Assembly (NCBI RefSeq): GCF_028728065.1
Contig: NZ_CP117812.1
Span: 2,108,001 to 2,172,000, forward strand
Length of the DNA stretch: 64,000 nt
Source: Lentisphaera profundi
GTDB lineage: Bacteria > Verrucomicrobiota > Lentisphaeria > Lentisphaerales > Lentisphaeraceae
Direction of reading: 5' to 3'
Both the position numbers and the translations under genes were made by a program. Shown here one piece after another: positions 13,397-56,475 of the stretch (positions are counted from its first letter, which is position 1; the number at the start of each line of letters is the position of its first letter). The notes below the pieces were generated by a model. The model searched no databases. It was not told the origin of the DNA and saw only the letters and a list, made by a program, of their open reading frames with translations.

Positions 13397-14011
13397 ATGG
13401 CCGTAACTTACATGACTAGCATTGGCAACCCCAAGCAGCTAGACACCCTTTTAAAAGACAATGTCTTAGATGGAAAATCAGAAAAGCGCACTGTCTTTGC
13501 GGGTCGCTCCAATGCGGGAAAAAGCTCCCTTTTAAATAGCTTAACTCACAGTAAAATTGCACAAATCTCACGTGAGCCTGGCAAGACTCGTAAAGTTAAT
13601 TTATTCTTCTGCACTTACCACAAGCGCGTTTTAACTGATTTACCTGGCTATGGCTTTGCCAAGCGCAATAAAACCGAGCGCAAGTTATGGGAAGAACTCA
13701 TCACGAGTTACTTAAATGCGGACAGAGCAAATATCGAGCGCATTATTTTAGTTACTGACTGCCGCCATGGACCCTCCGATTCTGATTTAGAAGCCATGGA
13801 ATTTTTTCAAAGCCTCGATTTTAATGTCACACTGGTTTTATCAAAATCTGATAAGCTCAATCAAAAAGCTATGTCAGCACGAAGAAAAGAAATTAAAGAA
13901 ATTATCAAAGACAATAAACCCGAAAAAACTTTTTGGATTTCTAGTCTCAAGGGAACAGGAGTTCGTGAATTAAGTAGAGATATACTCAATGACTCGCCAA
14001 GAACTGATTAA
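13397..14011 (+). CDS. engB: Ribosome-biogenesis GTPase EngB/YsxC/YihA
   Basis: A 204-aa TrmE-Era-EngA-EngB-type GTPase of standard length. G1 is GRSNAGKSS, G2 lies in the GKTRKVN region, G3 is DLPGYGFA, G4 is SKSD in place of the more usual TKAD, and G5 is SSLKGTG. The family acts in late assembly of the large ribosomal subunit. Its 3' end overlaps the next gene by 23 bases in another frame, so the two are probably cotranscribed. Confidence 0.95.
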   Translation: MAVTYMTSIGNPKQLDTLLKDNVLDGKSEKRTVFAGRSNAGKSSLLNSLTHSKIAQISREPGKTRKVNLFFCTYHKRVLTDLPGYGFAKRNKTERKLWEELITSYLNADRANIERIILVTDCRHGPSDSDLEAMEFFQSLDFNVTLVLSKSDKLNQKAMSARRKEIKEIIKDNKPEKTFWISSLKGTGVRELSRDILNDSPRTD

Positions 14012-16907
14012 ATTCCTAGAAAACTCTGCGCGTAAGCAAAGTTTTTCTGCTCTTCATCGAGCCTTGTGGAAGTTTTTGGCCCTGTCAATTACTTTTGCAA
14101 TCGTATTTATCATCATTGATCATTCCTTTCACGCCTCCACGCCCTTTCGCTGGGCGGCCTTTTGTCTTTTCTTTGTCTATATAATCTATTTCATCCAAGA
14201 CCAATTAAAACAGTCACAACGCAAGCTTAACACGCTTTATTTAGCTCGCGAAATAGAAAAACATCAGCCAAAACTAAACTCCTGCTTAAGCCATAGCCTG
14301 AGTAGCCAGCAAGATAAACTCATTGAGCACATTAAGATCAGTGATTTAATCTTCCCGAAGACAAAGAGCTCACAGCTCCCTTTAATCCTCATTGCTCTTG
14401 CGACTACTGCTTACATAAGCCTTAGTCCATACCCAAGTAAATTATCTTTACAGCGATTATTCTTGCCATGGAAAACCTTAGCTAGTCCCACGAAGACACT
14501 CATCGATACTATTTCACCTAATCCTGGCTCAGTCAGTTACCAAACAAACAACTGGTTTCTCAATGTTAAGATCCAAGGACTCGCCCCTAAACACGGCCAG
14601 ATAAAATATAGTTTTGACGCACAAATCCCCGTCAGTGAATGGCAGCAATCTCCTCTCTTACAAGAATCCAAAAACGAATTTCTTGCAGAACTGCCCGCAA
14701 TCCAAAGTCGCTTCTACATAAAAGTTTTTCTAGGAGATGCTGTGAGTGATTTATTTCATATAGATATTAAACTTCCTCCTACGGTTCAAGAGATCGAGTA
14801 CTTCATAAGTCCTCCAGATTATCTAAAGAAAAAAAACTACACCAGCCAGGGACCAGATCTAGAAATACTCAAAGGATCTTCTCTTGATATCAAAGTTAAC
14901 TTTGATAGACCCCTGCTTACGACTCAGATAAAACTAAACAACAAAAACCTCAGCTTAATCCTTCGCAATAAGACCGCACACATCAACAAATTAAACATTG
15001 ATCAAGACTCGTCTTTTACCCTCATCAGCAAAGAATCTGAGCTTGCACCTTATGTAGAAAGTCAAAAATATAAAATCAAAATCCTAGAAGACTTGCCTCC
15101 AAGACTAAGCTTCCCCAATTTTCAAAAAGAAATCTCATTAAAAGAGAACGCCTCGCAAGTGCCGATCGAAATTCATGCCTCTGATGACTGGGGGCTAAAA
15201 TCACTTACATTTAAAATCAAAGAACGTTTTTCTCAAAAACTTATCACAAAAGATATTTATGATGGCTTCTCTCGACAAAAAGTACTTGAGCTAAAGGCCT
15301 CGATCCCGCTACGGAAACTTTTCCCTGCTTTTCGTGCTAATGAAACTTATCAAATTTATTTTGAAGCCACGGATTCAAAAGATCAAAAATCTCAAAGCCC
15401 TGTTTTCTCCATTCATATCACTCCTCCATCCAAAGTTGATAAGCAAATTCCTCAGAAACAGGAGCAGCCACAAACCGGGGAGCAGACTGGTGAACAGACT
15501 GGAGAGCCAACTGGGGAACCTACTGGAGAGCCAACTGGGGAACCTACTGGAGAGCCAACTGGGGAACCTACTGGAGAGCCAACTGGGGAACCTACTGGAG
15601 AGCCAACTGGGGAACCTACTGGAGAGCCAACTGGGGAACCTACTGGAGAGCCAACTGGGGAACCTACTGGAGAGCCAACTGGGGAACCTACTGGAGAGCC
15701 AACTGGAGAGCCAACTGGAGAGCCAACTGGGGAACCTACTGGAGAGCCAACTGGGGAACCTACTGGAGAGCCAACTGGAGAGCCAACTGGGGAACCAACT
15801 GGAGAGCCAACTGGGGAACCTACTGGAGAGCCAACTGGAGAGCCAACTGGGGAACCAACTGGGGAACCTACTGGAGAGCCAACTGGGGAACCTACTGGAG
15901 AGCCAACTGGAGAGCCAACTGGGGAACCTACTGGAGAGCCAACTGGGGAACCAACTGGGGAACCAACTGGGGAACCAACTGGGGAACCAACTGGGGAACC
16001 AACTGGGGAACCAACTGGGGAACCAACTGGGGAACCAACTGGGGAACCAACTGGGGAACCAACTGGGGAACCAACTGGGGAACCAACTGGGGAACCAACT
16101 GGGGAACCAACTGGGGAACCAACTGGGGAACCAACTGGGGAACCAACTGGGGAACCAACTGGGGAACCAACTGGGGAACCAACTGGGGAACCAACTGGGG
16201 AACCAACTGGGGAACCAACTGGGGAACCAACTGGGGAACCAACTGGGGAACCAACTGGGGAACCAACTGGGGAACCAACTGGGGAACCAACTGGGGAACC
16301 AACTGGGGAACCAACTGGGGAACCAACTGGGGAACCAACTGGGGAACCAACTGCAGAGCCAGGAACTCAACCAGGAACTCAACCAGGAACTCAACCAGGA
16401 TCTCAACCAGGATCTCAACCAGGATCTCAACCAGGATCTCAACCAGGATCTCAACCGGGATCTCAGCCAGGATCTCAACCGGGTTCTCAACCGGGTTCTC
16501 AGCCAGGATCTCAACCGGGTTCTCAACCAGGCCCAGGAGGCGATGGCAGTATTGATCAAGGCCCCGGTCAAGAGTTCACAAATCCTACAGAGAAATCTGC
16601 TGATGAAGCCCTTGCTAATAACTCCAAAAAATCTAATGCTAAACTCGACACCATTGGCAATAAGGGGCAAGAGCAAACACTCGATCCCAATGAATCCTCT
16701 GCTAAAAACCAAGAAAATGATTCATCACCCACACTCAAAAGTCCTGTTAAAAAACAAGAAATTGATATCCAAGGAAACGAAGAAAAACTAGAGCAAAGAC
16801 AACAGGAAATTGATGATGATACACAAAATATCAGCCCTGAGAATCAAAAAATTATTGATAACTACCGCAAGGCACTACAAAAATATAAAAAATCTCAGAA
16901 GAAATAG
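13989..16907 (+). CDS. Membrane protein with giant TGEP repeat domain (DUF4175-like N-terminus)
   Basis: A 972-aa protein. Transmembrane segments occur at about residues 28-45, 55-72 and 130-145, followed by a large extracytoplasmic beta-rich region (to about residue 485) with the look of PVC DUF4175-type proteins. A short Gln-rich linker leads into two TGEQ units, 71 TGEP units, one TAEP and 14 (GTQP/GSQP) units (residues about 496-847). The C-terminal 125 residues are charged, and the end is helical (EEKLEQRQQEIDDD, ALQKYKKSQKK). The repeats resemble Pro/Thr/Gly wall-spanning or glycosylated linkers. The start overlaps engB by 23 bases; no better SD-supported start was found. Confidence 0.7.
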   Translation: MTRQELIKFLENSARKQSFSALHRALWKFLALSITFAIVFIIIDHSFHASTPFRWAAFCLFFVYIIYFIQDQLKQSQRKLNTLYLAREIEKHQPKLNSCLSHSLSSQQDKLIEHIKISDLIFPKTKSSQLPLILIALATTAYISLSPYPSKLSLQRLFLPWKTLASPTKTLIDTISPNPGSVSYQTNNWFLNVKIQGLAPKHGQIKYSFDAQIPVSEWQQSPLLQESKNEFLAELPAIQSRFYIKVFLGDAVSDLFHIDIKLPPTVQEIEYFISPPDYLKKKNYTSQGPDLEILKGSSLDIKVNFDRPLLTTQIKLNNKNLSLILRNKTAHINKLNIDQDSSFTLISKESELAPYVESQKYKIKILEDLPPRLSFPNFQKEISLKENASQVPIEIHASDDWGLKSLTFKIKERFSQKLITKDIYDGFSRQKVLELKASIPLRKLFPAFRANETYQIYFEATDSKDQKSQSPVFSIHITPPSKVDKQIPQKQEQPQTGEQTGEQTGEPTGEPTGEPTGEPTGEPTGEPTGEPTGEPTGEPTGEPTGEPTGEPTGEPTGEPTGEPTGEPTGEPTGEPTGEPTGEPTGEPTGEPTGEPTGEPTGEPTGEPTGEPTGEPTGEPTGEPTGEPTGEPTGEPTGEPTGEPTGEPTGEPTGEPTGEPTGEPTGEPTGEPTGEPTGEPTGEPTGEPTGEPTGEPTGEPTGEPTGEPTGEPTGEPTGEPTGEPTGEPTGEPTGEPTGEPTGEPTGEPTGEPTGEPTGEPTGEPTGEPTGEPTGEPTGEPTGEPTGEPTAEPGTQPGTQPGTQPGSQPGSQPGSQPGSQPGSQPGSQPGSQPGSQPGSQPGSQPGSQPGPGGDGSIDQGPGQEFTNPTEKSADEALANNSKKSNAKLDTIGNKGQEQTLDPNESSAKNQENDSSPTLKSPVKKQEIDIQGNEEKLEQRQQEIDDDTQNISPENQKIIDNYRKALQKYKKSQKK
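15498..16349 (+). repeat. 71-copy 12-bp minisatellite encoding TGEP
   Basis: 852 bp made of exactly 71 twelve-base units. Three unit variants occur: ACTGGAGAGCCA, ACTGGGGAACCT and ACTGGGGAACCA, all encoding TGEP. The first 37 units (15498-15941) mix the variants, mostly alternating as a 24-bp higher-order repeat. The last 34 units (15942-16349) are identical copies of the third variant. Because the unit is a multiple of three, copy-number change preserves the frame. Confidence 0.97.
16362..16529 (+). repeat. 14-copy 12-bp repeat encoding GTQP/GSQP
   Basis: 168 bp of tandem 12-base units: three encode GTQP, then eleven encode GSQP. Units differ at GGA/GGG/GGT and CCA/CCG wobble positions, so this array is older or less homogenised than the neighbouring TGEP array. 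Confidence 0.92.
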
Positions 16908-19851: not shown

Positions 19852-21447
<1,596 letters not shown>

Positions 21448-21545: not shown

Positions 21546-21579
21546 AAAAAGTCACTTCCAAAGGAAGTGGCTTTTTTTT
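21546..21579 (-). terminator. Bidirectional terminator of the signalling operon
   Basis: Stem AAAAAGTCACTTCC with GGAAGTGGCTTTTT around a short loop. It lies immediately past the stop of the minus-strand receiver-kinase gene and has A and T runs on opposite sides, so it can also back up the eno terminator. Confidence 0.85.
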
Positions 21580-23695
21580 ATTCAGGGTCGATGACCATCG
21601 TTTTAAATGTATCAGACATGGCTTCAGAATATTCCTTATTATCCTTCAAGTCCACATACTCTGACCACCAATCTTTCGCAATTTGGCCGCCCCAATCATC
21701 TAAAGGAATCTTGTTTAACTCATCATACAAAATCCCCGCTGACTGTGGTCGCTTTTGAGGATCTTTCTCCAAACACCTCATTAAAATATCGGCAAACGCT
21801 TCTGGCATGTCAAAGCCTGCTGCCTCTCGGATATCTACGGGTTTATCTTGAATATGCTTTAGCATAACTGCCATCGGTGTTGGGGCATCAAAAACATGTG
21901 ATCCGGTTAAAGCTACATAAAATGTACACGCTAAGGAATAAATGTCCGCTAGGCCACTAAGCTCTTTACTCATTGCCGTCTCGGGCGCCATAAAGTTCGG
22001 CGTGCCTATAGGCTGTCCATTGGTCAAATTACTATCTTCGACTCCTGCATTTGAAACAATACCAAAATCCAAAACCTTTAAGAAGTCATATTCTTCTCCT
22101 AGCTTTGCGATAAAGAGATTATCCGGTTTAATATCTCGATGCACCATTCCTAAACGATGCGCTTCGGCTAAACTGCGGCAAGTTTGCTTCATGAGATAGA
22201 TTGCTCGACTTGACTTGATGGCTCCAAATTTATTGATTAATTCACCCAAACTCAAACCCTCAAGTAATTCCATTACATAATAGAATTCACCCATATCAGT
22301 GACACCATAATCATATAAAGTCACCGTGTGAGGCGATCGTAAATTCGCCGTAGATCTCGCCTCTCTATGAAAGCGCTGCAATAAAGTTTCTTTACTCAAC
22401 AATGCCGAATCCAAATTTTTGATGAGCTTTATCGCTGCCGGACGCGCCAATAATTTGTGCATCCCACGCCAAACCTCTCCCATCCCACCATCACCTAACA
22501 TCCCATCTAATTTGTAGGCACCAATGGTTTGCTCTCCCTCCAAGTCTTCTTTACTAATCTCTAAATAATTAGAGTCACTTTTAAAAACCGCTCTTTCAAT
22601 TAAATTCTCTAACTCACCAATATCTCCAGGCCAAGAATACTGAACCAGATTCTCAACACTATCTTTACTTAGGCCATCAATAGTCTTAGCTAATTTCAGA
22701 CCATACTTATTCGCATAGAATTTTGAAATTGCCTCAATATCGGAAGCGCGCTCATGCAGTCGTGGAATTTGAATGAAATTATCACATAAATACTCTATTA
22801 AATCGGAACTGATTTCCTTTTTTTCATAATCTCTATTCGTATGAAAAATAACTAAGCCTTCTTCAATATTTTTACGCGTCCAGTGATTTTTTATATATCC
22901 GATAATTCCTTGCTGTTTATCTAAAGGTAACTTATCTATTTGTTCAAAATAAATACATCCACCTTTAGCAAGGTCAAATTTTTCAAGGAGCTCATTATCG
23001 CTCTGTAAAACTTCAGACTCCCTTTGGTACATCAAGGCACAGTTTAACTGCACAAATGCTCGCTCATTAAACTTCGAGGCCTGATGAATTTCTCTCGCAA
23101 TTACATTTTCGCCACAACTAGGCTTACCTAATAACATCAGTGGCTTAGCCATAATCCCTGAGTGTTCAATCTTTTCTTTTAAATCCTGTAAAACCAGGCT
23201 ATCACCAAGCAATGGACCACTGAGTTCACGCTGAGCCTCTTTACCTAAATACTTGATTCGCTTTAACTCTTCTTCCAATAAGGAATTTTTGGCTTTTAAC
23301 TTTTCACTCAAATTCCTTAGACGCAGCTGTGTCTTAACTCGTGAAATAACCTCCTCTGCCTGAAAGGGCTTAGTAATGAAATCTACCGCTCCAAGATCCA
23401 AGCCTTTGACCTTATCCTCTACTTGACCTAATGCCGATAAAAAGATAATGGGAATATCTTTCGTCTCTTCTTCAGCCTTTAACTCCGCACAAACTGTATA
23501 ACCATCTTTATCTGGCATCATTACATCTAACAAAATGATGGATGGCTTTACTTTCTCCACGGTTGCAAGTGCCTGGACTCCGCCTTTTGCAATCAGTATT
23601 TTTTTGCCTAAAACCTGTAAAGTCTTGAATAAAACCTGTAAATTGTTAGCATTATCATCGACAATCAAGATCACTTCTTCGTCAACATCACTCAC
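21578..23695 (-). CDS. Response regulator: receiver + degenerate sigma-54-type AAA+ + Ser/Thr protein kinase
   Basis: A 705-aa three-domain protein. Residues about 5-125 form a receiver with acidic pair Asp13/14, phospho-acceptor Asp57 (LLDVMMP) and Lys109 (TKP). Residues about 160-385 align with the sigma-54 activator AAA+ domain (GPLLGDSLVLQDL, WPGDIGELENLIERAV), but the Walker A lysine is Glu (GKPSCGEN, 190-197), Walker B is FEQI instead of LDEI, and no GAFTGA loop is seen. Residues 394-675 form a complete Ser/Thr kinase (Lys423, HRDIKPDN 519-526, DFG 543-545). The GTG start at 23695 is chosen because AGAGG lies six bases upstream; an ATG at 23716 has no SD. It overlaps the histidine kinase gene by 8 bases, so phosphotransfer between the two is likely. 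Confidence 0.88.
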   Translation of the reverse strand: MSDVDEEVILIVDDNANNLQVLFKTLQVLGKKILIAKGGVQALATVEKVKPSIILLDVMMPDKDGYTVCAELKAEEETKDIPIIFLSALGQVEDKVKGLDLGAVDFITKPFQAEEVISRVKTQLRLRNLSEKLKAKNSLLEEELKRIKYLGKEAQRELSGPLLGDSLVLQDLKEKIEHSGIMAKPLMLLGKPSCGENVIAREIHQASKFNERAFVQLNCALMYQRESEVLQSDNELLEKFDLAKGGCIYFEQIDKLPLDKQQGIIGYIKNHWTRKNIEEGLVIFHTNRDYEKKEISSDLIEYLCDNFIQIPRLHERASDIEAISKFYANKYGLKLAKTIDGLSKDSVENLVQYSWPGDIGELENLIERAVFKSDSNYLEISKEDLEGEQTIGAYKLDGMLGDGGMGEVWRGMHKLLARPAAIKLIKNLDSALLSKETLLQRFHREARSTANLRSPHTVTLYDYGVTDMGEFYYVMELLEGLSLGELINKFGAIKSSRAIYLMKQTCRSLAEAHRLGMVHRDIKPDNLFIAKLGEEYDFLKVLDFGIVSNAGVEDSNLTNGQPIGTPNFMAPETAMSKELSGLADIYSLACTFYVALTGSHVFDAPTPMAVMLKHIQDKPVDIREAAGFDMPEAFADILMRCLEKDPQKRPQSAGILYDELNKIPLDDWGGQIAKDWWSEYVDLKDNKEYSEAMSDTFKTMVIDPE

Positions 23696-25172
23696 CTGAA
23701 ACCTCTTTATAATCATCTATTATTTTTTGTATCGCATCAAAATCAAAGGCATTAGCTTTTTCTAAAATAATTTCTTTTAAGCTCGCTTCACTGACTTGAT
23801 CACTCAGCTTCATTGCCAAGGTCTCTAATTCACTAAAGTCACCCAAGATGGTGGCTTGCTCTAAGTCTTTCAACCAAGCTTGATCTAAGGAAAGTTCTTT
23901 CATTTCCAAAACTGGAACTCCATGAGCTACTTCTTCCAAGCTCACCTTAGCTAAGGAGCCCTCGGTTTTTTCTCCTAGCTTAGCGACTCCTTCAAATTTA
24001 GCGGGGTGCGTAAACCAAAAACTACTGCCCTTGCCCTCTTCACTTTCCAAACCGATCTCGCCACCTAATGCTTCCACTAGCTTCACACAGATCGCTAGAC
24101 CTAAACCGGTCCCACCTTCTTTCCTTCCTCCCTCATCCTGCCTAAAGGCCTCAAAAACTCTTTTTTGTTTCTCTGCGGGAATTCCTATCCCGGTATCGAT
24201 CACTAAAAACTTAAGATATTGACCTTGGATTTCAACTTTGAGATCCACACTGCCTGTCGATGTATATTTAACGGCATTCCCTACTAAGTTAACTAAAATC
24301 TGCCGTAACTTAGTCACGTCAGACTGAATATATTGCGGTATCTCTGGATTAAGAGAATGACCTAAACTCAAGTTTTTCTCTAAAGCTTTGTACCTTAAAA
24401 TATCCTCAGTCTCATTGACGATCCTACTGATATCTACCTCGTCATAAAAAAGTTCTAATTTGCCTGCTTCAATTTTTGAGATATCTAAAATATCATTAAT
24501 CACCGTCAGCAAATGCTCACCACAATTCATTATCCCCTTCAAACTGCTTTGGTACTTAGTCTGGAGGTCCGGGGAATTTTGCAATACTTGGGTATAACCC
24601 AACACTCCATTTAAAGGGGTTCGTAATTCATGACTCATATTTGACAAAAATTGACTCTTTTCCACATTCGCTTTTTCCGCTTCGGCTCGTGCTTTCTCGG
24701 CTTCTTGTGTTCGTTGAAAAACTTTCTCTTCTAATAAAGTTCCATGATCAGCTAGCTCAGCATTCTTGTGCTCCAATTCTAACAATAGCTCCTCTACGGT
24801 TTTCTTGTTGAAGCTTCCACGGATACCTTCGACTTCTTGCTCAATCATCTGGAAGTCAGTCCCCAAAAAATCTTTCAAAATCAGCTTGTCGCCCTTATCA
24901 CAAACTTCTGTGAAAAAGACTTCAAAAGGGAGATTCAATTTGTTTTCTCGGCTTAATTCTAAACATAAGTAGGCACCCATCGACTGCCTCTCAATTTTTA
25001 TTAAAAGCTCAGTTTTGCAATCCAATTGCCTGAGTAATTCCGAGAGGAAACTCACTTTGCGTGAACAGCAAACTTCCTCAAAAGCAAACATTTTAAAAAG
25101 CGTATAGAATTTTTTCCTCAAAGCCAAAACACAGGCTTCCGCTTTCACCGTCACATTGCCTAATACAATCAT
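23688..25172 (-). CDS. Sensor histidine kinase of the stressosome operon
   Basis: A 494-aa soluble histidine kinase without transmembrane helices. Residues about 1-115 may be a degraded RsbT/anti-sigma-type ATPase fold (the pattern FLSELLRQL resembles RsbT's SELAxNI). A coiled coil (130-170) leads to the HisKA domain with His181 (SHELRTPLNG), then HATPase_c with N-box VNLVGNAVKYT, DTGIGIP and GGTGLGLAI. A C-terminal helical tail of about 95 residues ends the protein. The chosen ATG (25170-25172) overlaps the RsbX-like stop as ATGA, with AGGGG upstream. There is no receiver domain of its own; the next gene supplies one. Confidence 0.88.
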   Translation of the reverse strand: MIVLGNVTVKAEACVLALRKKFYTLFKMFAFEEVCCSRKVSFLSELLRQLDCKTELLIKIERQSMGAYLCLELSRENKLNLPFEVFFTEVCDKGDKLILKDFLGTDFQMIEQEVEGIRGSFNKKTVEELLLELEHKNAELADHGTLLEEKVFQRTQEAEKARAEAEKANVEKSQFLSNMSHELRTPLNGVLGYTQVLQNSPDLQTKYQSSLKGIMNCGEHLLTVINDILDISKIEAGKLELFYDEVDISRIVNETEDILRYKALEKNLSLGHSLNPEIPQYIQSDVTKLRQILVNLVGNAVKYTSTGSVDLKVEIQGQYLKFLVIDTGIGIPAEKQKRVFEAFRQDEGGRKEGGTGLGLAICVKLVEALGGEIGLESEEGKGSSFWFTHPAKFEGVAKLGEKTEGSLAKVSLEEVAHGVPVLEMKELSLDQAWLKDLEQATILGDFSELETLAMKLSDQVSEASLKEIILEKANAFDFDAIQKIIDDYKEVSGE

Positions 25173-25738
25173 ATTTTCACCCCTAAGCACCCCATATCAT
25201 CAGTCATTTTACCAAAGTCGCGCACTGCCCGATGTACTATCGCATCTATATTTTCATGCTCTAATATGAGCAATCGTTTATTATTCAAATTCTTTATGCC
25301 ATCAGTGTGTAATAATAAAACATCATTCTCCATTAGCTTAACTGATTGTGTGAAATAGCTGCCTTTCCTATGCCCCAACATGCCATCTTTTGACACAAAA
25401 CTTTTACTCACTCCGTTTAAAAAATAGTGGCACAATACATTACCCATTGCAGAGAAATGTAATTTATTATTCATGTCAATAATTAAAACACCTGCAGCAC
25501 AACCCACTGTTCCAGAACAAATATCATTAAGTTCATCTAAGTAATTCTCTACTGTTTTACTCTCTTCAAAAACCATGAGATTTTTAATTTTATCCACGAG
25601 CAGAGCCGCAAGTTCTCCATGCCCAGTAACATCAATCAAAATGGCAACTTGACTCCCATTCTCAAATTCTTCATGATGACCCCAGTCTCCACATCGGCGC
25701 TCTCCCATTAAAGCTTGAGTTTTTATGGCGAATTTCAT
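25169..25738 (-). CDS. RsbX-like PP2C-family phosphatase
   Basis: A 189-aa SpoIIE/PPM-type phosphatase of RsbX size and position. Metal-binding motifs are GD at 17-18, IDVTGHG with Asp36, HTDG at 144-147 and the final Asp pair in MTDDMGCLGV (180-181). In Bacillus, RsbX dephosphorylates RsbR and RsbS and so resets the stressosome. It is directly coupled at both ends: its ATG overlaps the RsbT stop (ATGA), and its stop overlaps the histidine kinase start (ATGA). Confidence 0.85.
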   Translation of the reverse strand: MKFAIKTQALMGERRCGDWGHHEEFENGSQVAILIDVTGHGELAALLVDKIKNLMVFEESKTVENYLDELNDICSGTVGCAAGVLIIDMNNKLHFSAMGNVLCHYFLNGVSKSFVSKDGMLGHRKGSYFTQSVKLMENDVLLLHTDGIKNLNNKRLLILEHENIDAIVHRAVRDFGKMTDDMGCLGVKI

Positions 25739-26130
25739 AAGGACTTCTCTGCGGTAATTGTAACTCCACAGCCTTCTTCTGATTCTATCTCCAAATGATC
25801 CATAATCCGCTTAATCCCGGGTAAACCGAGACCCAAACTACCAGACGTACTATAATTATCACATAAAGCATTCTCTATATCTGCGATACCTGGCCCATGG
25901 TCTTTTGAGTATACTTGTAAGTACTCACCATGACTATTTTGAGTAATGGTCAAGGATATTTTTCCTCTATCAGCATATTTATTGATATTTTGTGCGAGTT
26001 CAGAAAAAACAGTTAAAAACAAACTTTGCGAATGTTTATCTTTGATACATAAGCCCAACCACTCTTTTGCCTCAATAATACCAGTCGCGACTGATACATC
26101 ATCATATATATAACAATTAAGCTTATCCAT
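25735..26130 (-). CDS. rsbT: RsbT-like serine kinase / switch protein
   Basis: A 131-aa GHKL ATPase that matches RsbT over its full length: N-box SELAQNINKYA (43-53), G1 DHGPGI (77-82), and the RsbT-specific block CDNYSTSGSLGLGLPGIKRIMD (90-111). RsbT phosphorylates RsbR and RsbS in the stressosome; on release it activates a partner, which is the phosphatase RsbU in Bacillus. No rsbU gene is present. The downstream histidine kinase is the obvious candidate partner here; that is inference. It overlaps rsbS by 8 bases and the RsbX-like gene by 4. Confidence 0.94.
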   Translation of the reverse strand: MDKLNCYIYDDVSVATGIIEAKEWLGLCIKDKHSQSLFLTVFSELAQNINKYADRGKISLTITQNSHGEYLQVYSKDHGPGIADIENALCDNYSTSGSLGLGLPGIKRIMDHLEIESEEGCGVTITAEKSL

Positions 26131-26476
26131 TATTATTCACAATCGCTAAAGCCGCCTCGAGACTACCCGTAAATCGCATGCCTTTAAAATCATCAACTAA
26201 TTCCACCAAGGCACTGACCACTCCTGCATTTAAACCATGATTAATAACTGCAACGCCCATGATTTGCACTTTCCTCACCAAGGCACTACAACGCTCGTAC
26301 TCTGTTTTATCCATAACTTGATAGGCTGAATAATCTAAAATTAAATACTTCATATCATGCTCATCCAACTCTTTGAGTAGAAACTTACTGAATTCTAAAA
26401 AATCACTCTCCGGCAAATCACTCGGCATCGCATAGAGTAAATAATTATTGATAAAATGACCTGGAACTTGATTCAT
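26123..26476 (-). CDS. rsbS: RsbS-like STAS-domain stressosome scaffold
   Basis: A 117-aa single STAS-domain protein of RsbS size, lying between RsbR-like and RsbT-like genes. The fold pattern is retained (LILDYSAYQVMD, MGVAVINHG, AALVE-like helix), but the usual RsbS phosphosite segment VDSF reads MDKT (Asp56-Lys57-Thr58): the phosphorylated Ser position is Lys, with Thr next to it. In Bacillus, Ser59 of RsbS must be phosphorylated by RsbT to release RsbT. The change may shift phosphorylation to Thr58 or remove this control. The gene order, spacing and size still support rsbS. Confidence 0.82.
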   Translation of the reverse strand: MNQVPGHFINNYLLYAMPSDLPESDFLEFSKFLLKELDEHDMKYLILDYSAYQVMDKTEYERCSALVRKVQIMGVAVINHGLNAGVVSALVELVDDFKGMRFTGSLEAALAIVNNNG

Positions 26477-26486
26477 AAAGGCCCCC

Positions 26487-27389
26487 TTAACTCTTTACAA
26501 TTCCAATGCCTTGACTCGTAAGCGCATGATTTAAAGCATCTTTTAAGTTGGAGTTTGTTCGTATACTTCCGACATCAATACCAAGCTCAACAATGGTTTG
26601 TGCAATCGCGGGAGAAATACCTGAAAAAGTACATTCACAGCCCATGAGACGAGTCGCTTTACTTATCTTAATCAAGTGATTGGCAACGGCAGTATCAACC
26701 ACTGCGACACCACTAATATCCAAAATACAGATTCGCGCTTGTGTCTGCGCTATTTTGGATAAAATTGAATTCATCACATCCTGACTTCTCTTGGAATCGA
26801 TAATCCCGACTAAGGGCAACATCAATATATCATCCCAAATCTCAGTCACGGGAGTCGACATTTCCATCAGTGCTTGACTTTGTTTAGAAATTGTTTTGTT
26901 GGTCATAAAGCTAAAGGCTTCGACTACAATCATCGTATCGAGATGAACCATTTTCGTAAAGGCTCGACAAACTGCATCTAAATCTTGTTTGCATTTAGAT
27001 GCTAAAATCCTTTTTATCCATAAAAATAAGGAATGATCTACGGCTACAAAGTACGCAGATAGCGACAAGCCTATTCTCGCATGAGTCAAGCCTATCTTTT
27101 CACGACTCAGAACATAGTCCTCATCAATTTTGGCCAACAAAAATTCCTGCCAATACCTACGCTGCATATTTTTAACTTGCTGTAAAAGTTGCTTGTCTGA
27201 GAAAAATATCGTGAACTCTTGCGACTTTTCTAACCACACATAAAAGTCAGCAATAAAGTCATCTAAATGATCCGCTAAGTCTTTACCTGCTGCTTGAATC
27301 AGTTCGATATCTTCCGAACTTATCTGAAAAAGCTCCAGTAATTCTTGCGATTTATAATTACAAATGGTGTCACTATGCTTACTAATCAT
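26487..27389 (-). CDS. rsbR: RsbR-like sensor with heme-globin domain and STAS domain
   Basis: A 300-aa protein. Residues about 10-165 form a globin-coupled-sensor domain: LFQISSEDIELI, then MQRRYWQEFLL, and the proximal-His helix KIGLTHARIGLSLSAYF with His103 as likely heme ligand. Residues about 181-296 form an RsbR-type STAS domain with the phospho-threonine segment VVDTAVA (Thr233) and the second site SIRTNSNL (Thr278). RsbR paralogues form the stressosome core with RsbS; globin versions in Vibrio and Chromobacterium bind heme and oxygen. The ORF opens at an upstream TTG, but the ATG at 27389, preceded by GGGGAT, is chosen. It is first in the six-gene operon. Confidence 0.9.
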   Translation of the reverse strand: MISKHSDTICNYKSQELLELFQISSEDIELIQAAGKDLADHLDDFIADFYVWLEKSQEFTIFFSDKQLLQQVKNMQRRYWQEFLLAKIDEDYVLSREKIGLTHARIGLSLSAYFVAVDHSLFLWIKRILASKCKQDLDAVCRAFTKMVHLDTMIVVEAFSFMTNKTISKQSQALMEMSTPVTEIWDDILMLPLVGIIDSKRSQDVMNSILSKIAQTQARICILDISGVAVVDTAVANHLIKISKATRLMGCECTFSGISPAIAQTIVELGIDVGSIRTNSNLKDALNHALTSQGIGIVKS

Positions 27390-27814
27390 TTCTATCCCCA
27401 ATTATTTAAATATCTCACACTATATCCTCTGCTAGTTGAGAAGAAGCTTCTATCATAATTACAGAAGCAACAATTCATTGACTTTTTATTAAATCTGAGA
27501 TAAATGCATTAAAAAACCCCCCCTCATGATCAAGCTTAGATACTCTTAAGTATTGAGCAAGTAGTTCAGGAATTTTATTTTTACACGAATAAAACAGCAT
27601 CGATCATTGTAATTGTGTCACCATTAGCAAGTAAAAATCAACTTATCACTCAGATAAAAAGGCCTCTCGAAAAACGCTAAGCTTTATTAATCGCCCCTCA
27701 AAAACTCACTTAATTTTTCATTCAAATATTTAGTGGTGATTTGGTGTTGATAATCCCTTGCTTTTCATTACATTGTGCGGAAACTAATTGATCTATTTTA
27801 AAGGAATAAATATT
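27390..27814. other. Divergent regulatory region between stressosome operon and argG
   Basis: No gene was found in these 425 bases. It carries the divergent promoters. A candidate argG promoter is listed separately. On the stressosome side no clean -35/-10 pair was seen; a palindrome AGAAGCTTCT lies at about 27442-27451. An A6C7 tract at about 27511-27523 is notable but unexplained. Confidence 0.4.
27747..27774 (+). promoter_or_regulatory. Candidate sigma-70 promoter for argG
   Basis: TTGATA at 27747-27752 and TACATT at 27769-27774 with 16-base spacing. It would give a leader of about 35 bases before the argG ATG, which has AAAGGAATA upstream. Confidence 0.4.
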
Positions 27815-29909: not shown

Positions 29910-30392
29910 ATGTCTAACGAAAAAATTTACGTCGGCGGTGCCAAGGAAACTAACGGTAATTTCGGTTCATTTCACCGTATCTCATTTTCTAAAGCTGATT
30001 TAGATATTCTAATGAGTAATCTAAACGCCAAAGGTTACGTTAACCTCAATATGAATAAGCGTCGCCAGCCTAGTCAATATGGACAAACTCATAGCTTAAC
30101 TATCGATACTTGGGAACCTAATCAAGGCCAAGGACAAGCCCAGGGACAAGGTTTCCAACAAGCAGCTCCACAGGCTCAAGGTTTTCAACAAGCAGCTCCA
30201 CAGGCTCAAGGCTTTCAACAAGCAGCTCCGCAAGCCCAAGGTTTTCAACAAGCAACTCCACAAAATCAAGGTTTTCAGCAAGCAGCTCCACAAAGCTCAA
30301 ATGACATGGCTGACCTCAACCATTCACGTCCCCCAGTGAGTGACATGCCTAATTTTGATGATATCAATGATCCTGAAGACTGCCCGTTCTAA
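29910..30392 (+). CDS. Small protein with Gln/Pro repeats and SSB-like acidic C-terminal tail
   Basis: A 160-aa protein starting at the ATG preceded by GGAGG (the longer ORF begins 15 bases earlier). Residues 1-66 form a compact domain of unknown family (GSFHRISFSKADLDILMSN, THSLTIDTW). Residues 67-130 are Gly/Gln-rich with five GFQQAAPQAQ-type repeats. The C-terminus is DDINDPEDCPF, an acidic tail ending in Pro-Phe like the DDDIPF tip by which SSB recruits DNA repair and replication proteins. The domain order (compact N-domain, disordered linker, acidic tip) is that of SSB, but no SSB OB-fold signature was recognised. It is a single gene with its own terminator. Confidence 0.75.
   Translation: MSNEKIYVGGAKETNGNFGSFHRISFSKADLDILMSNLNAKGYVNLNMNKRRQPSQYGQTHSLTIDTWEPNQGQGQAQGQGFQQAAPQAQGFQQAAPQAQGFQQAAPQAQGFQQATPQNQGFQQAAPQSSNDMADLNHSRPPVSDMPNFDDINDPEDCPF
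30150..30299 (+). repeat. Five 30-bp in-frame repeats (GFQQAAPQAQ)
   Basis: Five tandem 30-bp units, about 80-95% identical, encoding GFQQAAPQAQ and variants (GFQQATPQNQ, GFQQAAPQSS) in the linker of the SSB-tailed protein. Confidence 0.9.
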
Positions 30393-46776: not shown

Positions 46777-48741
46777 TTAGAATACTCTGAAGATATGTAT
46801 TGGAGCGGCTCTATCTGAGATCTCTACAAAGTTCTCCACGCCAGACCAATCATAAACTTGATCCGTAATTAAGTCATGCATTTTGTATTGGTGATCGTTA
46901 TTAAATCCTAATTCATGTAGGGGGAGATGAACCATTCCACCCTGACTATGCAATGGGTCAAGGCTTACTACGATAAGCAAAGTATTATCCTCAACACGTT
47001 TGAGATAAGCGATTAACTTCTCATTATTCACATTACAAAATTGAAGATTATTTTGAATCTGAAGCGCTGGATTTTCACGGCGAATCATATTGAGTTTCTT
47101 TACAAATGGCGCAATACTTCCCGCATCCTCGTAGTCCCTCACTTTAAGTTCATACTTCTCCGAGTCCATTAATTCATCACGTGGACCCACAGGAATATTT
47201 TCGCATAATTCATAGCCTGTATACATCCCGTAAACAGGAGATAAGGTGACAGCTAAAGCATGACGTATTCTAAACATCTGTGCGGAGGCATTCTGTAAAT
47301 GCTTCGGCAAAATATCTGGCGTTGTCGTAAAAACGTTACAGGTCATGTAATCAACCGCATCCGAATTGTGTAGATACTTGAAGTATTCCGTCAATTCTTC
47401 TTTACTTTCTCTCCAAGTAAAATACCCATAAGATTGGGTAAATCCATTCTTAGCTAAGAGTTCCATTAAACGCGGACGAGTGAAGGCTTCAGATAAAAAG
47501 ATAACATCATTATATTTCTCATGAACCTCGGCAATACACCAATTCCAAAAGCTAATAGGTTTTGTATGGGGATTATCCACTCGGAAGGTTTTTACTCCAT
47601 GACTGGCCCAAAATAAAAAGATATCTCTTATCTCGGCCCATAAATTTTTGCGATCTTCGCACTCAAAATTTAAAGGATAAATATCTTCGTACTTCTTAGG
47701 TGGATTCTCTGCATATTTGATGGATCCGTCCGGGCGACGGTAGAACCAATCGGGATGATCTTTTAAATACGGGTGATCTGGCGAACAATTGAGTGCAAAA
47801 TCCAAGGCAATTTCAATATCTTTTTTAGCGCAAGCTTTCACTAAATGATCAAAATCATCCATCGTTCCAAGCTCAGGGTGAACCGCAAAGTGCCCCCCTG
47901 CTTCGGATCCAATTGCATAAGGACTACCAGGCTCTCCTTTTTGTGCTTCAAGAGAGTTATTCTTCCCTTTGCGCTTCGAAAATCCTATGGGATGAATGGG
48001 TGCAAAATAGAGTACATCAAAACCAAGGTCATCAATATAAGGCAGCATTTTTTCTACATCAGCAAACGTTCCGTGCACACCTTCTTTTCCAGAACATGAA
48101 CGAGGAAAAACTTCATACCAAGAGGCAAATTCTGCGCGTCGACGATCACATCGAACCGAATAAACACCACTTGTAGCAGTGTTAAATGACTTTCTATCCG
48201 GAAGTGAGGCCGCCAAATCTTTCAATTCAGCTTCCATCATTCTATAAAATTTCTGTGCCATATCTTTGCTAGCTTCTAGCTCTTTGATAATGGCTTCCAT
48301 ATTCTTTGCGATGGTTTTATTCGCACGTGATTGACACTCTTTGAGTAAGCCAACACCCTCGATCAGCTCAGAACTGATTTCTTCGCCAGCCTGGAATTTT
48401 TTTTCCACGCCATGTGCCCAGTTATGATAAAAATCTGCGTAAGCAAAAATTTTAAACTCATAAAGGCCGACTTTTTCAGCTTTGAATTTCGCTGTATATA
48501 AATCTAAACCCGCATTTTCACAGTCCATCGTAATAGTCTGCCAACGCTTTTCGCTTTTATGCTTAAAATTAAGTTCTGCTGATAAGCCATCATGTCCCTG
48601 TTGTAAAATCTCAGCACTAACTTCTAAGTCATCTCCCTGCCTGCGTTTAACGGGATATAAACCGCCATCGACTGCGGGTTTTACATTCTGGATATAAACG
48701 TAATGGCTATTGCAATCCGTCTTTAGTAGCTGTTGAATCAT
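46777..48741 (-). CDS. glgE: Alpha-1,4-glucan:maltose-1-phosphate maltosyltransferase (GlgE)
   Basis: A 654-aa GH13_3 protein. The N-terminal DUF3416-type domain (VYIQNVKPAVDGGLYPVKRRQGD) and long helical insert are followed by a TIM barrel with YFAPIHPIGFSKRKGKNN, ALDFALNCSPDHP, FRVDNPHTKP (Asp nucleophile) and FLSEAFTRP (Glu acid/base), then GYELCENIPVG. GlgE extends alpha-1,4-glucans using maltose-1-phosphate made by the TreS/Pep2 route; none of those genes is nearby. It overlaps the 3' end of the kinase gene by 35 bases. The ATG at 48741 is chosen over 48753, which has its AGGAG directly adjacent to it. Confidence 0.93.
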   Translation of the reverse strand: MIQQLLKTDCNSHYVYIQNVKPAVDGGLYPVKRRQGDDLEVSAEILQQGHDGLSAELNFKHKSEKRWQTITMDCENAGLDLYTAKFKAEKVGLYEFKIFAYADFYHNWAHGVEKKFQAGEEISSELIEGVGLLKECQSRANKTIAKNMEAIIKELEASKDMAQKFYRMMEAELKDLAASLPDRKSFNTATSGVYSVRCDRRRAEFASWYEVFPRSCSGKEGVHGTFADVEKMLPYIDDLGFDVLYFAPIHPIGFSKRKGKNNSLEAQKGEPGSPYAIGSEAGGHFAVHPELGTMDDFDHLVKACAKKDIEIALDFALNCSPDHPYLKDHPDWFYRRPDGSIKYAENPPKKYEDIYPLNFECEDRKNLWAEIRDIFLFWASHGVKTFRVDNPHTKPISFWNWCIAEVHEKYNDVIFLSEAFTRPRLMELLAKNGFTQSYGYFTWRESKEELTEYFKYLHNSDAVDYMTCNVFTTTPDILPKHLQNASAQMFRIRHALAVTLSPVYGMYTGYELCENIPVGPRDELMDSEKYELKVRDYEDAGSIAPFVKKLNMIRRENPALQIQNNLQFCNVNNEKLIAYLKRVEDNTLLIVVSLDPLHSQGGMVHLPLHELGFNNDHQYKMHDLITDQVYDWSGVENFVEISDRAAPIHIFRVF

Positions 48742-51037
48742 ACTTCCACCCATCTCCTAAAATTGTATCTAATTTTTGTTGAATATTATTTAGTTCACTT
48801 GGAAAAAGTTCTGTGACCTGTAGAAGCTTCATCCCGCTTTCACGCGCTCGGCTTTGAAGATTATTTTTTAAGTAATTATTAATCACATTATAGCGATTAA
48901 AAACATAATGATTAAAAACCACCGCAAGCATATCAGGATCCGCATCATTCTCTATGGCTTCTGAAAATTGTAAAGCACACAAAGCATAGGCGGCATAGAG
49001 TTTATCATCATCTTTAATTGGATAAATTGTTTGATACAGGTACTTCTGCTGAATCATTGGCAATTGGGGGATTTTATACGTTTTACCAAAGCTATCTTCA
49101 AGTTCTACACTACCCTCATCAGTATTATACACACTTATGGATATATCTTCCAAGTCGCCTCCAGGTAACAATAAATCTTGTCCTTCAAGTAAGCTCAAAC
49201 CTTGAGCAAATTTGAGTTGATACTCCTGCGCTTTGCCAATAAGCTTTTCTAAATCTTCCACTTCACTTAAATACACACCAAAAAGATTGCTTTTTTGCGC
49301 TGAAATCAAGGATAAAGCTAAGCGTGGCTTCCAGTAATAAACTTCTTTAAAACTACTCATTAATATTTTTGTTTTAGTTTCAGTCCATAACTTTTCCAAC
49401 ATGATCGCATCGTTAAAAAGAAGCTGCGGAACTTCATCCACTTGCTCTTCAGTGATGGTCTCTTGAGTAAGAATTTCTTTTGATTTATTAATATCACTAA
49501 GAACATGCGTATATAAATCTTCTTTAGTTCGCAAGGCTCTTTTTTCTTGCCTCACTTCATTAATTAATATGGCTTTTTCACGTACAATATGATTAAGTTT
49601 TTCTGAACTCTTGTCGAGCTTAGCTTGGAGAGCTTTTTGCTCCTGTTGACCCACTTCATTTAAAACGGAGAGAAGCTTTGCTTTCAGAGACATTTCTCTT
49701 GCATTTCCTTCTTCAGGTAGTCCTTGCAAGGCCTTTTCTAATTCAAGCCTTGTCCTCGCTATCTGTAAACTTCCCTGTTGAATACGGTCGAGTAAATTTT
49801 CAGCTTCAACTTCATATACTTTTTTTGATGGACTCGAAAAAATAGAAACCATTAGGGCTGCCGTCACAGCTGTAATGGCGATTAAATTAGTCCAAAATAT
49901 ATTTGAGGTCGAGTTTTGACCTTCACTCATAATAAAAGCTTCCGCGTCATGATAATCATCATTTGCACTTAAGCTGCGGATTTTTTTACGAGGTAGAGAG
50001 TCGAGTGAATTGGTTTCTTTCTTTTTCCCACCAAGCTGTAGATCTCCAATATCTTTTCGATTAAAGGAGATGGTGTGAATCCCAGGAACCATGCTCGGGT
50101 CCTTGCTTAAGCTTTTTCGGACTCGAACAATTTCTTTAATTAAAGCTTCATGATCAAGAAACCTTTTTTCAGGTGACTTCTCCATCATTTTAGTAATGAG
50201 CTTACGCACATCCAGCGGTAAATCTACGCGCCGATTATTAAACACAACCGGATCTTGAATATGTTGACGAGCCAATTCACTGACGTTTTCTGAATCGAAG
50301 GGTAAAACACCTGTAACGGAGTGATACAAAACAACTCCCAAGCTATAAATATCAGCTCGACAATCCATCGGATCTTTTAAAAATTGCTCTGGATTCATGT
50401 ATGCTGGTGTCCCAGATACTTCTTGTACATCCTGTAAATCTCTTTGCTGACGAGCTAAACCCATATCCGTCAGCTTCACCCAACCGTCAGCGGTAATCAT
50501 AATGTTGTCGGGCTTAATATCACGGTGAATTAAAGAATCTTTTTCCCAAGCATAATGCAAGCCTTCCGTCACTTGTTGTATTATACCTAAGGCTTCACTG
50601 ACATCTAGTTTTCCGTTTTTCTCTAAACGATGACCTAGGGTGTCGCCTTCTACATACTCCATCGCAAGATAGAGATCACTCTCATCCACCCCAAATGCAA
50701 AAACTTGCACAAGGTTTCCGTGAATCATTGAAGCTACCGATTGCGCTTCACGCAAAAATTCTTGGCGGAATTTATTATCTGCCGAATACCTTCGCAATAA
50801 AACTTTTAAAGCAATAGGGCGGTCTAGACTGATTTGCCTAGCCAAAAACACTGTTCCCATTCCACCTACACCAACAACTTTTTCAATAGAAAAGTCTTGG
50901 CCTATCACCCTTCCTGGATCATAAATTTTTCTAGGAACAACAATTTTTTTTGAGCATGTCGGACAATTTTTACTAGTACCAAGCTCTAAACTCTCAGCTT
51001 GATAAGTCGACTTACATAGAACGCACTGGAATTTCAT
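48707..51037 (-). CDS. Membrane Ser/Thr protein kinase with N-terminal zinc ribbon
   Basis: A 776-aa kinase. Residues 1-35 form a CxxC-x16-CxxC zinc ribbon (Cys5, 8, 25, 28). The kinase domain (about 49-310) has GVGGMG, Lys78, HRDIKPDN (171-178) and TDMGLAR, in which DMG (191-193) replaces DFG, and looks active. A transmembrane helix lies at 381-401, followed by a long Gln/Glu/Leu-rich coiled coil and an external or sensory C-terminal domain of unknown type. It starts in overlap with the hemW stop (TAATG) and overlaps glgE, so the ftsB-hemW-kinase-glgE genes are coupled. The two tandem proteins at 53.3-60.1 kb have the same N-terminal ribbon but dead kinase sites. Confidence 0.9.
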   Translation of the reverse strand: MKFQCVLCKSTYQAESLELGTSKNCPTCSKKIVVPRKIYDPGRVIGQDFSIEKVVGVGGMGTVFLARQISLDRPIALKVLLRRYSADNKFRQEFLREAQSVASMIHGNLVQVFAFGVDESDLYLAMEYVEGDTLGHRLEKNGKLDVSEALGIIQQVTEGLHYAWEKDSLIHRDIKPDNIMITADGWVKLTDMGLARQQRDLQDVQEVSGTPAYMNPEQFLKDPMDCRADIYSLGVVLYHSVTGVLPFDSENVSELARQHIQDPVVFNNRRVDLPLDVRKLITKMMEKSPEKRFLDHEALIKEIVRVRKSLSKDPSMVPGIHTISFNRKDIGDLQLGGKKKETNSLDSLPRKKIRSLSANDDYHDAEAFIMSEGQNSTSNIFWTNLIAITAVTAALMVSIFSSPSKKVYEVEAENLLDRIQQGSLQIARTRLELEKALQGLPEEGNAREMSLKAKLLSVLNEVGQQEQKALQAKLDKSSEKLNHIVREKAILINEVRQEKRALRTKEDLYTHVLSDINKSKEILTQETITEEQVDEVPQLLFNDAIMLEKLWTETKTKILMSSFKEVYYWKPRLALSLISAQKSNLFGVYLSEVEDLEKLIGKAQEYQLKFAQGLSLLEGQDLLLPGGDLEDISISVYNTDEGSVELEDSFGKTYKIPQLPMIQQKYLYQTIYPIKDDDKLYAAYALCALQFSEAIENDADPDMLAVVFNHYVFNRYNVINNYLKNNLQSRARESGMKLLQVTELFPSELNNIQQKLDTILGDGWKYDSTATKDGLQ

Positions 51038-56300: not shown

Positions 56301-56475
56301 TGACTTAGGTCCTCTTTTTTCTGACTTAAATTTCTGCATATACAAAAAAGCCATCTTCATAAATGAAGTAAAAGGAGACTTGCGTTTAAGTAGCAAATCA
56401 CCCGGTTATTTAAAAGGGCACAAAACTCAATCCATTGGCGTTCAGATGAATGAAAAACAGCTCCTACAGCTCTAA
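53326..56475 (+). CDS. Membrane pseudokinase with zinc ribbon and C-terminal beta-helix
   Basis: A 1049-aa protein with a TTG start, supported by AGGAA upstream and by alignment with its tandem paralogue (MNFSLTCLNC). A zinc ribbon (Cys8, 11, 28, 31) is followed by a kinase fold (about 54-310) with APE retained, but Arg81 replaces the ATP-binding Lys, HRDxxxxN reads HFNLNPHN (174-181) and DFG reads IGF (193-195), so it is a pseudokinase. One transmembrane helix (416-441) precedes a helical spacer. From about residue 788, RLLPGIYTAPIIIDHANTVIIGC and repeated SINISNC-type rungs suggest a right-handed beta helix outside the membrane. It has no known function. Confidence 0.8.
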   Translation: MANFTVTCKNCLSQIELDLSNSIEHYPCLNCQQEIPLRPNSMGENVELNSHISTLYEINDDGYSKLFIGYDSDEKQMCLIRVFDKTLYTSVSSPDELKNIMEAAAVHVGSSHLPIISSAYFEEYLYQIMPYIKLESLEQIIDNAYLWSPLQALDLCYNILESLEKAYTITGSGHFNLNPHNIFITNDGEVKFIGFTLAPQLLQDTKFISSPFNIFDIYYTAPELSMGLHYPNQSSDLYSLGLCLYYMLSGLTPFGDAEDKSEIVYQDLSFPENILADFDEDFMTIFTTMTHHDRNHRYQSYKQALDAFKQYYNSCGHTQLKQMEGEKTQLFQSQHFIQHIMPILQKKPKSLKLKSKQNYNSEVIRQRISTEVRLPREFKTKIHQPRQNNNRRLVQRSNSKLLQSSTRVPHQKKTNNILVFGIALALCLLTLILCLISYSVLSAKSNDDIPSEDLTTLERNNTKVNNTAISESHPQPIKKNDKQRHIETSWYDTELDKSEPNFTQINKKIATDLSTRNLDTEKTLLLVDKLTPPVTALQDLKTLAAIPPPINEEFQLLALQLINADLSAAKMTLLDLKTENINTKLDTLMELIKDSSHEQLFKSIFIKILSSDEPIIAINYEGQLIDAELNSYNLKQGTISVKSYIKGANINLQIPYTDLDPRYLVTWLNRNDKDSETFLRFMFLIQSNDFTEAYRYLKPYNGALAKSLKPLVQKYLNSEAESTLEITLLHFHQKLGSKINPLTITSNNSFALLALIQQIKSQYSFSDFTIENQKLMDSYMAQLKSIQRENHPNTLIVGPDNQFQLPRLSISLKSPNKIIRLLPGIYTAPIIIDHANTVIIGCTGVKILSDIVVNSSSCSLDNLTMTKGNLIINENLKSINISNCDLKNGYIQIFNKSQQISINNCIIKGLITADTATKLSIQNSLLLPSESHSTVLSGSPKRTQFLNCIFSSYGPPIFSNLKRTNDIRFRYCLFSTDYHLTKSPFQTYINLDDLGPLFSDLNFCIYKKAIFINEVKGDLRLSSKSPGYLKGHKTQSIGVQMNEKQLLQL

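Follow-up and report, generated by a model that had tools for sequence, protein, structure and literature searches.

Globin-type stressosomes are encoded as RsbR-RsbS-RsbT-RsbX (RSTX) modules, which Heinz et al. 2022 (PMC9237108) described from Proteobacteria, Lentisphaerae, Bacteroidetes, and Cyanobacteria, distinguishing eleven downstream architectures, histidine kinase (HK)/receiver phosphorelays included. Most of the downstream proteins, among them those of Vibrio vulnificus, have no RsbU_N domain, and the route from RsbT to these effectors was left open (PMC9237108). How the signal leaves stressosomes without RsbU_N effectors is an explicit open question for the Gram-negative systems. Here, we describe a stressosome operon of Lentisphaera profundi, located in a window of 64,000 nucleotides (nt; the whole stretch of DNA analyzed, contig NZ_CP117812.1, positions 2,108,001 to 2,172,000), in which the HK appears to begin with a decayed copy of RsbT, a feature that offers an answer.

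The operon is tight and occupies window positions 21578-27389 on the minus strand, the strand of all operon coordinates below. It encodes, in order, a globin-type RsbR, RsbS, RsbT, RsbX, an HK, and a protein made of a receiver (REC), a degenerate AAA domain, and a Ser/Thr kinase (STK). The initial annotation had read this region as a six-gene stressosome operon wired to an HK and a receiver-STK, and all six genes are indeed present and coupled. It had also considered the combination unusual, which is true of the protein-kinase output; an RSTX module followed by HK and receiver is a published, common layout (PMC9237108). Such RsbRSTX-HK-receiver operons have been published, so the combination of stressosome, HK, and receiver is in itself no novelty. 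Within the layout of globin stressosome and two-component system, only the protein-kinase output is unusual, and no protein-kinase domain is among the outputs listed in the Figure 3 legend of Heinz et al. (PMC9237108). The annotation missed that RsbR is a predicted heme-globin O2 sensor; it also missed the RsbS without phosphoserine, the degeneracy of the AAA domain, and the RsbT-like HK N-domain, the last being the best clue to how the stressosome is wired to the HK.

The N-terminal domain of the histidine kinase

The HK (23688..25172, 494 residues) consists of an RsbT-like N-domain, a coiled-coil linker, HisKA and HATPase domains, and a C-terminal tail. HisKA and HATPase have their key residues intact, His181 included. 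No Pfam family, RsbU_N included, matched the N-terminus (the first 105 to 175 residues). This region divides into an input domain (residues 1-105, 24858..25172) and a short helix that leads into a long coiled-coil linker with a conserved K[ST]xxEL motif (residues 106-174, 24651..24857). By both fold and sequence profile the input domain belongs with the RsbT/RsbW-type GHKL proteins. We assign it an RsbT-like identity because profile comparison, profile searches, an AlphaFold model, and intact versions in other organisms all agree. From its sequence and model, the HK N-terminus is predicted to consist of an RsbT-like domain that has no lid and is catalytically dead, with a coiled coil after it.

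In an hhalign comparison, a profile of 11 degenerate N-domains matched a profile of 24 RsbT sequences with a score of 47.3 (P=94%, E=1.3e-7); as controls, 30 column shuffles scored at most 15.6, the reversed profile 12.5, and RsbS 9.4. A profile built from decayed domains only, without RsbT, matched ten places among 388 genomes of the phylum, all of them in genomes that encode a stressosome-type RsbT or an RsbT-HK; it retrieved RsbT itself three times and HK N-termini otherwise. The AlphaFold2 model, likewise made from decayed sequences only (pLDDT 85.7), runs beta-alpha-alpha-beta-beta-(short loop)-beta-beta-alpha and continues into a 48-residue helix. RsbW, UsfX, and SpoIIAB were its best solved matches in Foldseek, and VIA-align placed these three at Z 10.5 to 8.4, RsbW being highest (Z 10.5 over 96 residues, 2.7 Å), followed by SiaB (7.8), LvrC of Leptospira (6.9), and everything else below 6. 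A separate model of the planctomycete N-domain gave Z 10.6 with RsbW. Moreover, the HKs encoded after RsbX in Deinococcus, Paraburkholderia, Phaeobacter, and Verrucomicrobiota carry an intact RsbT-like GHKL domain at the same position, which matches the RsbT profile at up to E=1e-40.

Two other identities were rejected. RsbU_N is excluded by the lack of a Pfam match and by the predicted alpha/beta fold, which is not a four-helix bundle. An active switch kinase is excluded by the missing nucleotide-binding boxes: the N-box Asn and the G1 and G2 boxes are gone from all 11 degenerate N-domains (those of Lentisphaera, Vibrio, and the class members G040 and G164 included) and from the Flammeovirga protein described below. 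We found no description of an RsbT-like input module in the literature, in a search that lacked the full text of many journals.

The module on other effectors

The N-domain and its linker open the protein encoded just after RsbX on three kinds of enzyme: HKs in Lentisphaera and Vibrio, GAF-HD-GYP proteins in planctomycetes, and a PP2C in Flammeovirga. At the planctomycete loci (L028-L030), an RsbT-X fusion precedes the GAF-HD-GYP protein that bears the module. In Flammeovirga (Bacteroidota), the module sits on a SpoIIE/PP2C phosphatase, which a profile built without this protein matched at 45.7 bits (E 3.7e-16; best of 5000 shuffles, 13.4). The K[ST]xxEL linker motif is common to the module-bearing effectors. 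The genome scan for RsbR used patterns from its globin part and returned six loci, and the taxonomic breadth given here is a lower bound. Some stressosome operons (L036, L017, L020, L094) encode three successive RsbT-like domains: a stand-alone RsbT, one fused to PP2C, and one at the HK N-terminus.

Amid the decay, Arg19 is the one charged residue invariant in 12 of 12 N-modules. It aligns with SpoIIAB Arg20, presumably a contact residue, and with Arg19 of Bacillus subtilis RsbT, at what we take to be its position in that sequence. In B. subtilis RsbT, R19 has been implicated in RsbU binding (PMC12143880). The stand-alone RsbTs of the decayed systems have Gly, Val, or Gln in its place, and the arginine is kept in the 12 RsbTs of other systems. 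On the simplest reading of these sequences, the effector would now carry the face formerly offered by RsbT. Independent, repeated loss of the arginine from RsbT is ruled out by the tree, in which the RsbTs of decayed systems form one clade (98/94). We consider it probable that, in at least four phyla, the HKs, HD-GYP proteins, and PP2Cs whose genes directly follow rsbX have an unrecognized modular input domain in place of RsbU_N. This domain, an RsbT-like pseudo-switch-kinase that has no lid and is joined to a coiled coil, would couple them to the stressosome by pairing with RsbT or by occupying RsbT's stressosome site.

Several points weigh against this reading and against the signaling route proposed below. 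Individual lineages by themselves match RsbT weakly (E 1e-3 to 2e-5), and it is the pooled profile, the fold, and the intermediates that carry the case for an RsbT-like N-domain. Within the genus, the N-domain ranks with the less conserved regions of the HK (49-58% identity, against 90-92% for the DHp domain), and the six-gene operon is confined to that genus. Because the RsbTs concerned fall in a single clade, the exchange of the arginine between RsbT and HK amounts to one evolutionary event, not a repeated correlation. Finally, a V. vulnificus two-hybrid assay saw no interaction between RsbT and the HK, VvD1 (PMC9237108), a result that counts against a stable RsbT:HK pair. That assay, run aerobically, also missed the RsbT-RsbR and RsbT-RsbS interactions (PMC9237108).

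The two-hybrid result, together with the suggestion of Heinz et al. that RsbT transiently phosphorylates the HK in Vibrio (PMC9237108), would suit an N-domain that is only a dimerization domain, with RsbT controlling the HK by transient phosphorylation without stable docking. We regard this as unlikely, since a generic dimerizer need not be RsbT-like, need not keep one invariant surface arginine amid decay, and need not be limited to stressosome loci across HK, HD-GYP, and PP2C outputs. RsbT/RsbW-fold proteins do commonly dimerize, and because they do, a captive RsbT copy could act in this way.

The stressosome core, its kinase output, and their conservation

RsbR (26487..27389, 300 residues) is a protoglobin sensor with a linker and a STAS domain; its assignment is strong, with 51% identity to V. 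vulnificus RsbR (7o0i_B, E=1e-92). Its His103 and Tyr50 align with the heme-ligand His123 and distal Tyr70 of HemAT, the signature of globin O2 sensors, and it keeps the phosphosite residues equivalent to VvRsbR Ser199 and Thr233. RsbR/S/T signaling in V. brasiliensis is O2 dependent and reported to be active at low O2 (PMC4976288). These residues and the Vibrio data suggest that the Lentisphaera RsbR is a heme-globin O2 sensor. The single-STAS scaffold protein RsbS (26123..26476, 117 residues) has no Pfam match and aligns with the solved RsbS chains 3zxn, 6qcm, and 7o0i (E 3e-5 to 4e-4). At the canonical phosphoserine position (B. subtilis Ser59, Listeria Ser56), defined here by the solved Listeria and Moorella chains, the three Lentisphaera have Lys, Lys, and Arg. 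The serine is also lost from Vibrio, planctomycete, and Flammeovirga RsbS and kept by the RsbS of G040 and G164; its lack of conservation in V. brasiliensis has been published (PMC4976288). The loss is therefore typical of globin-type stressosomes. The switch kinase RsbT (25735..26130, 131 residues) has intact N, G1, and G2 boxes and no arginine equivalent to B. subtilis R19. RsbX (25169..25738, 189 residues) is a single-domain SpoIIE/PP2C phosphatase (38.8 bits). With RsbR, RsbS, RsbT, and RsbX encoded together, the locus has the genes of a full RSTX module. The Pfam families matched by the operon proteins are Protoglobin and STAS, HATPase, SpoIIE, HisKA and HATPase, and Response_reg, Sigma54_activat, and Pkinase.

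The last protein (21578..23695, 705 residues, GTG start) is a REC-degenerate sigma54-type AAA-STK. Asp13/14, Asp57, and Lys109 of its receiver are invariant, as in a response regulator, and its kinase domain has the catalytic Lys and Glu and the HRD, DFG, and APE motifs of a Ser/Thr kinase. The AAA domain has lost its Walker A lysine to replacement and its GAFTGA region to deletion, and no Fis or other DNA-binding domain follows; an active sigma54 activator was rejected on these grounds. Two genomes of the class, both negative in the RsbT search, encode full-length homologues of this architecture (39-42% identity); these adjoin hybrid HKs, whose sensors are dCache/HAMP/PAS or YfiR-like, or lie near a PAS HK. 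REC-AAA-STK is thus not an invention of this operon; stressosome-free relatives have it too, next to ordinary sensor HKs, which makes it a reused part. By its gene neighborhoods, REC-pseudoAAA-STK appears to be an output protein of the class that normally follows a sensor HK, the stressosome module apparently replacing the conventional sensor in Lentisphaera. The pairing with sensor HKs elsewhere therefore supports a path from HK to receiver to STK. Such regulators (L095, L096, and L097 in genomes G147 and G126), once in tandem duplicate, make up an unusual response-regulator family of Lentisphaeria. The L. profundi genome encodes more than 20 other STKs, two of them in the window: one at 48707-51037 (minus strand), between a GlgE-type maltosyltransferase and a HemN-like radical-SAM gene, and one at 53326-56475 (plus strand).

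Since members of the REC-AAA-STK family work with unrelated sensor HKs in other genomes, and co-transcription is no proof of contact, the stressosome and two-component genes might share a promoter and not a pathway; the HK would then use its N-domain to sense another signal, and the STK would serve that other pathway. This seems to us quite improbable. Deletions of RSTX and of the HK give similar phenotypes in V. vulnificus (PMC10014275), the HK input domain has a stressosome-family fold that was matched only in stressosome genomes, and the overlapping gene order is kept in three species. The overlaps of 4 to 8 bases given in the initial annotation hold for rsbS/rsbT, rsbT/rsbX, rsbX/HK, and HK/STK (8, 4, 4, and 8 nt), whereas rsbR and rsbS are separated by a gap of 10 nt. 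The last overlap assumes that the STK gene starts at the GTG at 23695; the listed ATG at 23716 would make it 29 nt and is the less likely start, since in both relatives the gene begins at the position that corresponds to 23695.

Conservation across Lentisphaerota, the support that the annotation had hoped for, extends through the genus and not through the phylum. An RsbT profile search was positive in 3/3 Lentisphaera genomes and in 0/3 from the family's other genera; beyond Lentisphaera, only two of 198 class genomes (G040 and G164) had a strong RsbT match in an RSTX-HK locus. The complete six-gene order, with its enolase neighbor, recurs in L. marina (L025) and a third species (L052, whose RsbR was called from an internal start), which is well beyond chance. 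Synonymous change among the three is saturated and dN is 0.10-0.34; every operon gene is therefore under purifying selection. In G040, R-S-T-X-HK is followed by CheY-like proteins, and in G164, R-S-T-X is followed by a hybrid HK with a divergent REC-HD-GYP. Given these differing outputs, Lentisphaera is the only source of an STK output among the stressosome loci covered here. Plasmids of Xanthomonas, Paraburkholderia, Phaeobacter, and Deinococcus also carry related RSTX-HK loci. When the HK N-domain by itself was searched against plasmids with tblastn, it gave no match, as expected given its divergence.

The statement that the operon has no RsbU or sigma factor was borne out, and RsbU_N was not found anywhere in the genome; nor were a stand-alone RsbW-type kinase and a clear RsbV. 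A sigma-B-type output through RsbU, RsbV, RsbW, and SigB was rejected accordingly. The remaining STAS matches of the genome are two SulP-size frames and one weak 165-residue frame, and its sole other SpoIIE protein is a GAF-SpoIIE at C1:463130. About 86 sigma-70 region-2 matches, mostly ECF-sized, were counted in the 5.5-Mb genome. That SpoIIE protein and the many sigma-70 matches are what could be cited for an RsbT that acts on an RsbU/RsbV/RsbW/sigma partner elsewhere, the HK branch being secondary. With those partner families not found, and with an RsbT that lacks the arginine implicated in RsbU binding, we give this very little credence.

Downstream, the operon converges with an enolase gene (20155-21447), from which it is separated by a terminator-like 14-bp hairpin with T-runs (21546..21576, strand not assigned). 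The intergenic region upstream of rsbR (27402..27787, minus strand) is the presumed site of the operon promoter; a promoter scan there gave matches no better than shuffles. Elsewhere in the window, an open reading frame at 13989-16907 (plus strand, 972 residues) encodes a low-complexity PT-type repeat protein, probably a disordered surface or spacer protein, with an array of 36 copies of a 24-bp unit (15486-16531, 95% match) followed by a 12-bp array. Five copies of a 30-bp repeat (QGFQQAAPQA; 30147-30300, plus strand) lie in the tail of a small protein; the copy number is different in L052.

Proposed signaling route and comparison with described systems

Taken whole, the reading we favor, and judge reasonably probable, is an oxygen-gated stressosome with a two-component output that ends in a Ser/Thr kinase, coupled through the RsbT-like N-domain of the HK. 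RsbR, as a heme globin, would build with RsbS a scaffold to which the switch kinase RsbT is bound; upon a fall in O2, RsbT would phosphorylate RsbR and be released, and RsbX would reset the scaffold. The HK would read the state of the stressosome through its dead, lid-less RsbT-like N-domain on the coiled coil. This domain may either pair with RsbT as a pseudo-RsbT partner, which we slightly prefer, or occupy the place of RsbT on the STAS core. The change in occupancy would then alter the coiled coil and with it HK activity, and the HK would phosphorylate the receiver of the last protein, switching its Ser/Thr kinase on or off. The contact of RsbT or STAS with the HK, the direction of regulation, and the phosphotransfer are steps that we infer.

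A decayed RsbT at an effector N-terminus is a concrete docking hypothesis, testable with one domain and one arginine. If true, the module would explain how one stressosome core is plugged into HKs, cyclic di-GMP (c-di-GMP) enzymes, or phosphatases; with its occurrence on three types of output enzyme across at least four phyla, the fused RsbT-like domain may be the missing link between stressosome and effector. The Lentisphaera operon would add a new endpoint, leading from oxygen, via a phosphorelay, to Ser/Thr phosphorylation.

The closest described system is RsbRSTX-VvD1-VvD2 of V. vulnificus and V. brasiliensis, which shares with Lentisphaera the globin RsbR (51% identity), the order R-S-T-X-HK-receiver, an RsbS without the canonical serine, and the lack of sigma-B. 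The Vibrio HK also has the RsbT-like N-domain, as read from V. zhanjiangensis (L027), a close orthologue of the VvD1 operon; in VvD1 the domain went unrecognized (PMC9237108). However, in Vibrio the HK is of the PAS hybrid type and has an Hpt domain, and the output is a REC-HD-GYP acting on c-di-GMP, whereas Lentisphaera has a simple HK and a REC-pseudoAAA-Ser/Thr kinase. The last protein shares with NtrC-type regulators (REC-AAA-Fis) the order of REC and sigma54-AAA, and its AAA lid domain is still detectable; unlike them, it has a shortened AAA without the Walker A lysine and a Ser/Thr kinase in place of the DNA-binding domain. The HK N-domain has the predicted fold of the switch kinases RsbW, SpoIIAB, UsfX, and SiaB (Z 7.8-10.5), but it has neither nucleotide-binding boxes nor lid, is fused to an HK, and is not an anti-sigma factor. 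In overall design the module resembles the RsbU_N effectors (B. subtilis RsbU, Moorella MtG, and the proteobacterial RsbU_N-HKs), which likewise combine an N-terminal input module and a helical linker with interchangeable outputs (PP2C, GGDEF, or HK). RsbU_N, however, is a four-helix-bundle dimerizer that binds RsbT, whereas the Lentisphaera input module would itself be a pseudo-kinase of the RsbT fold.

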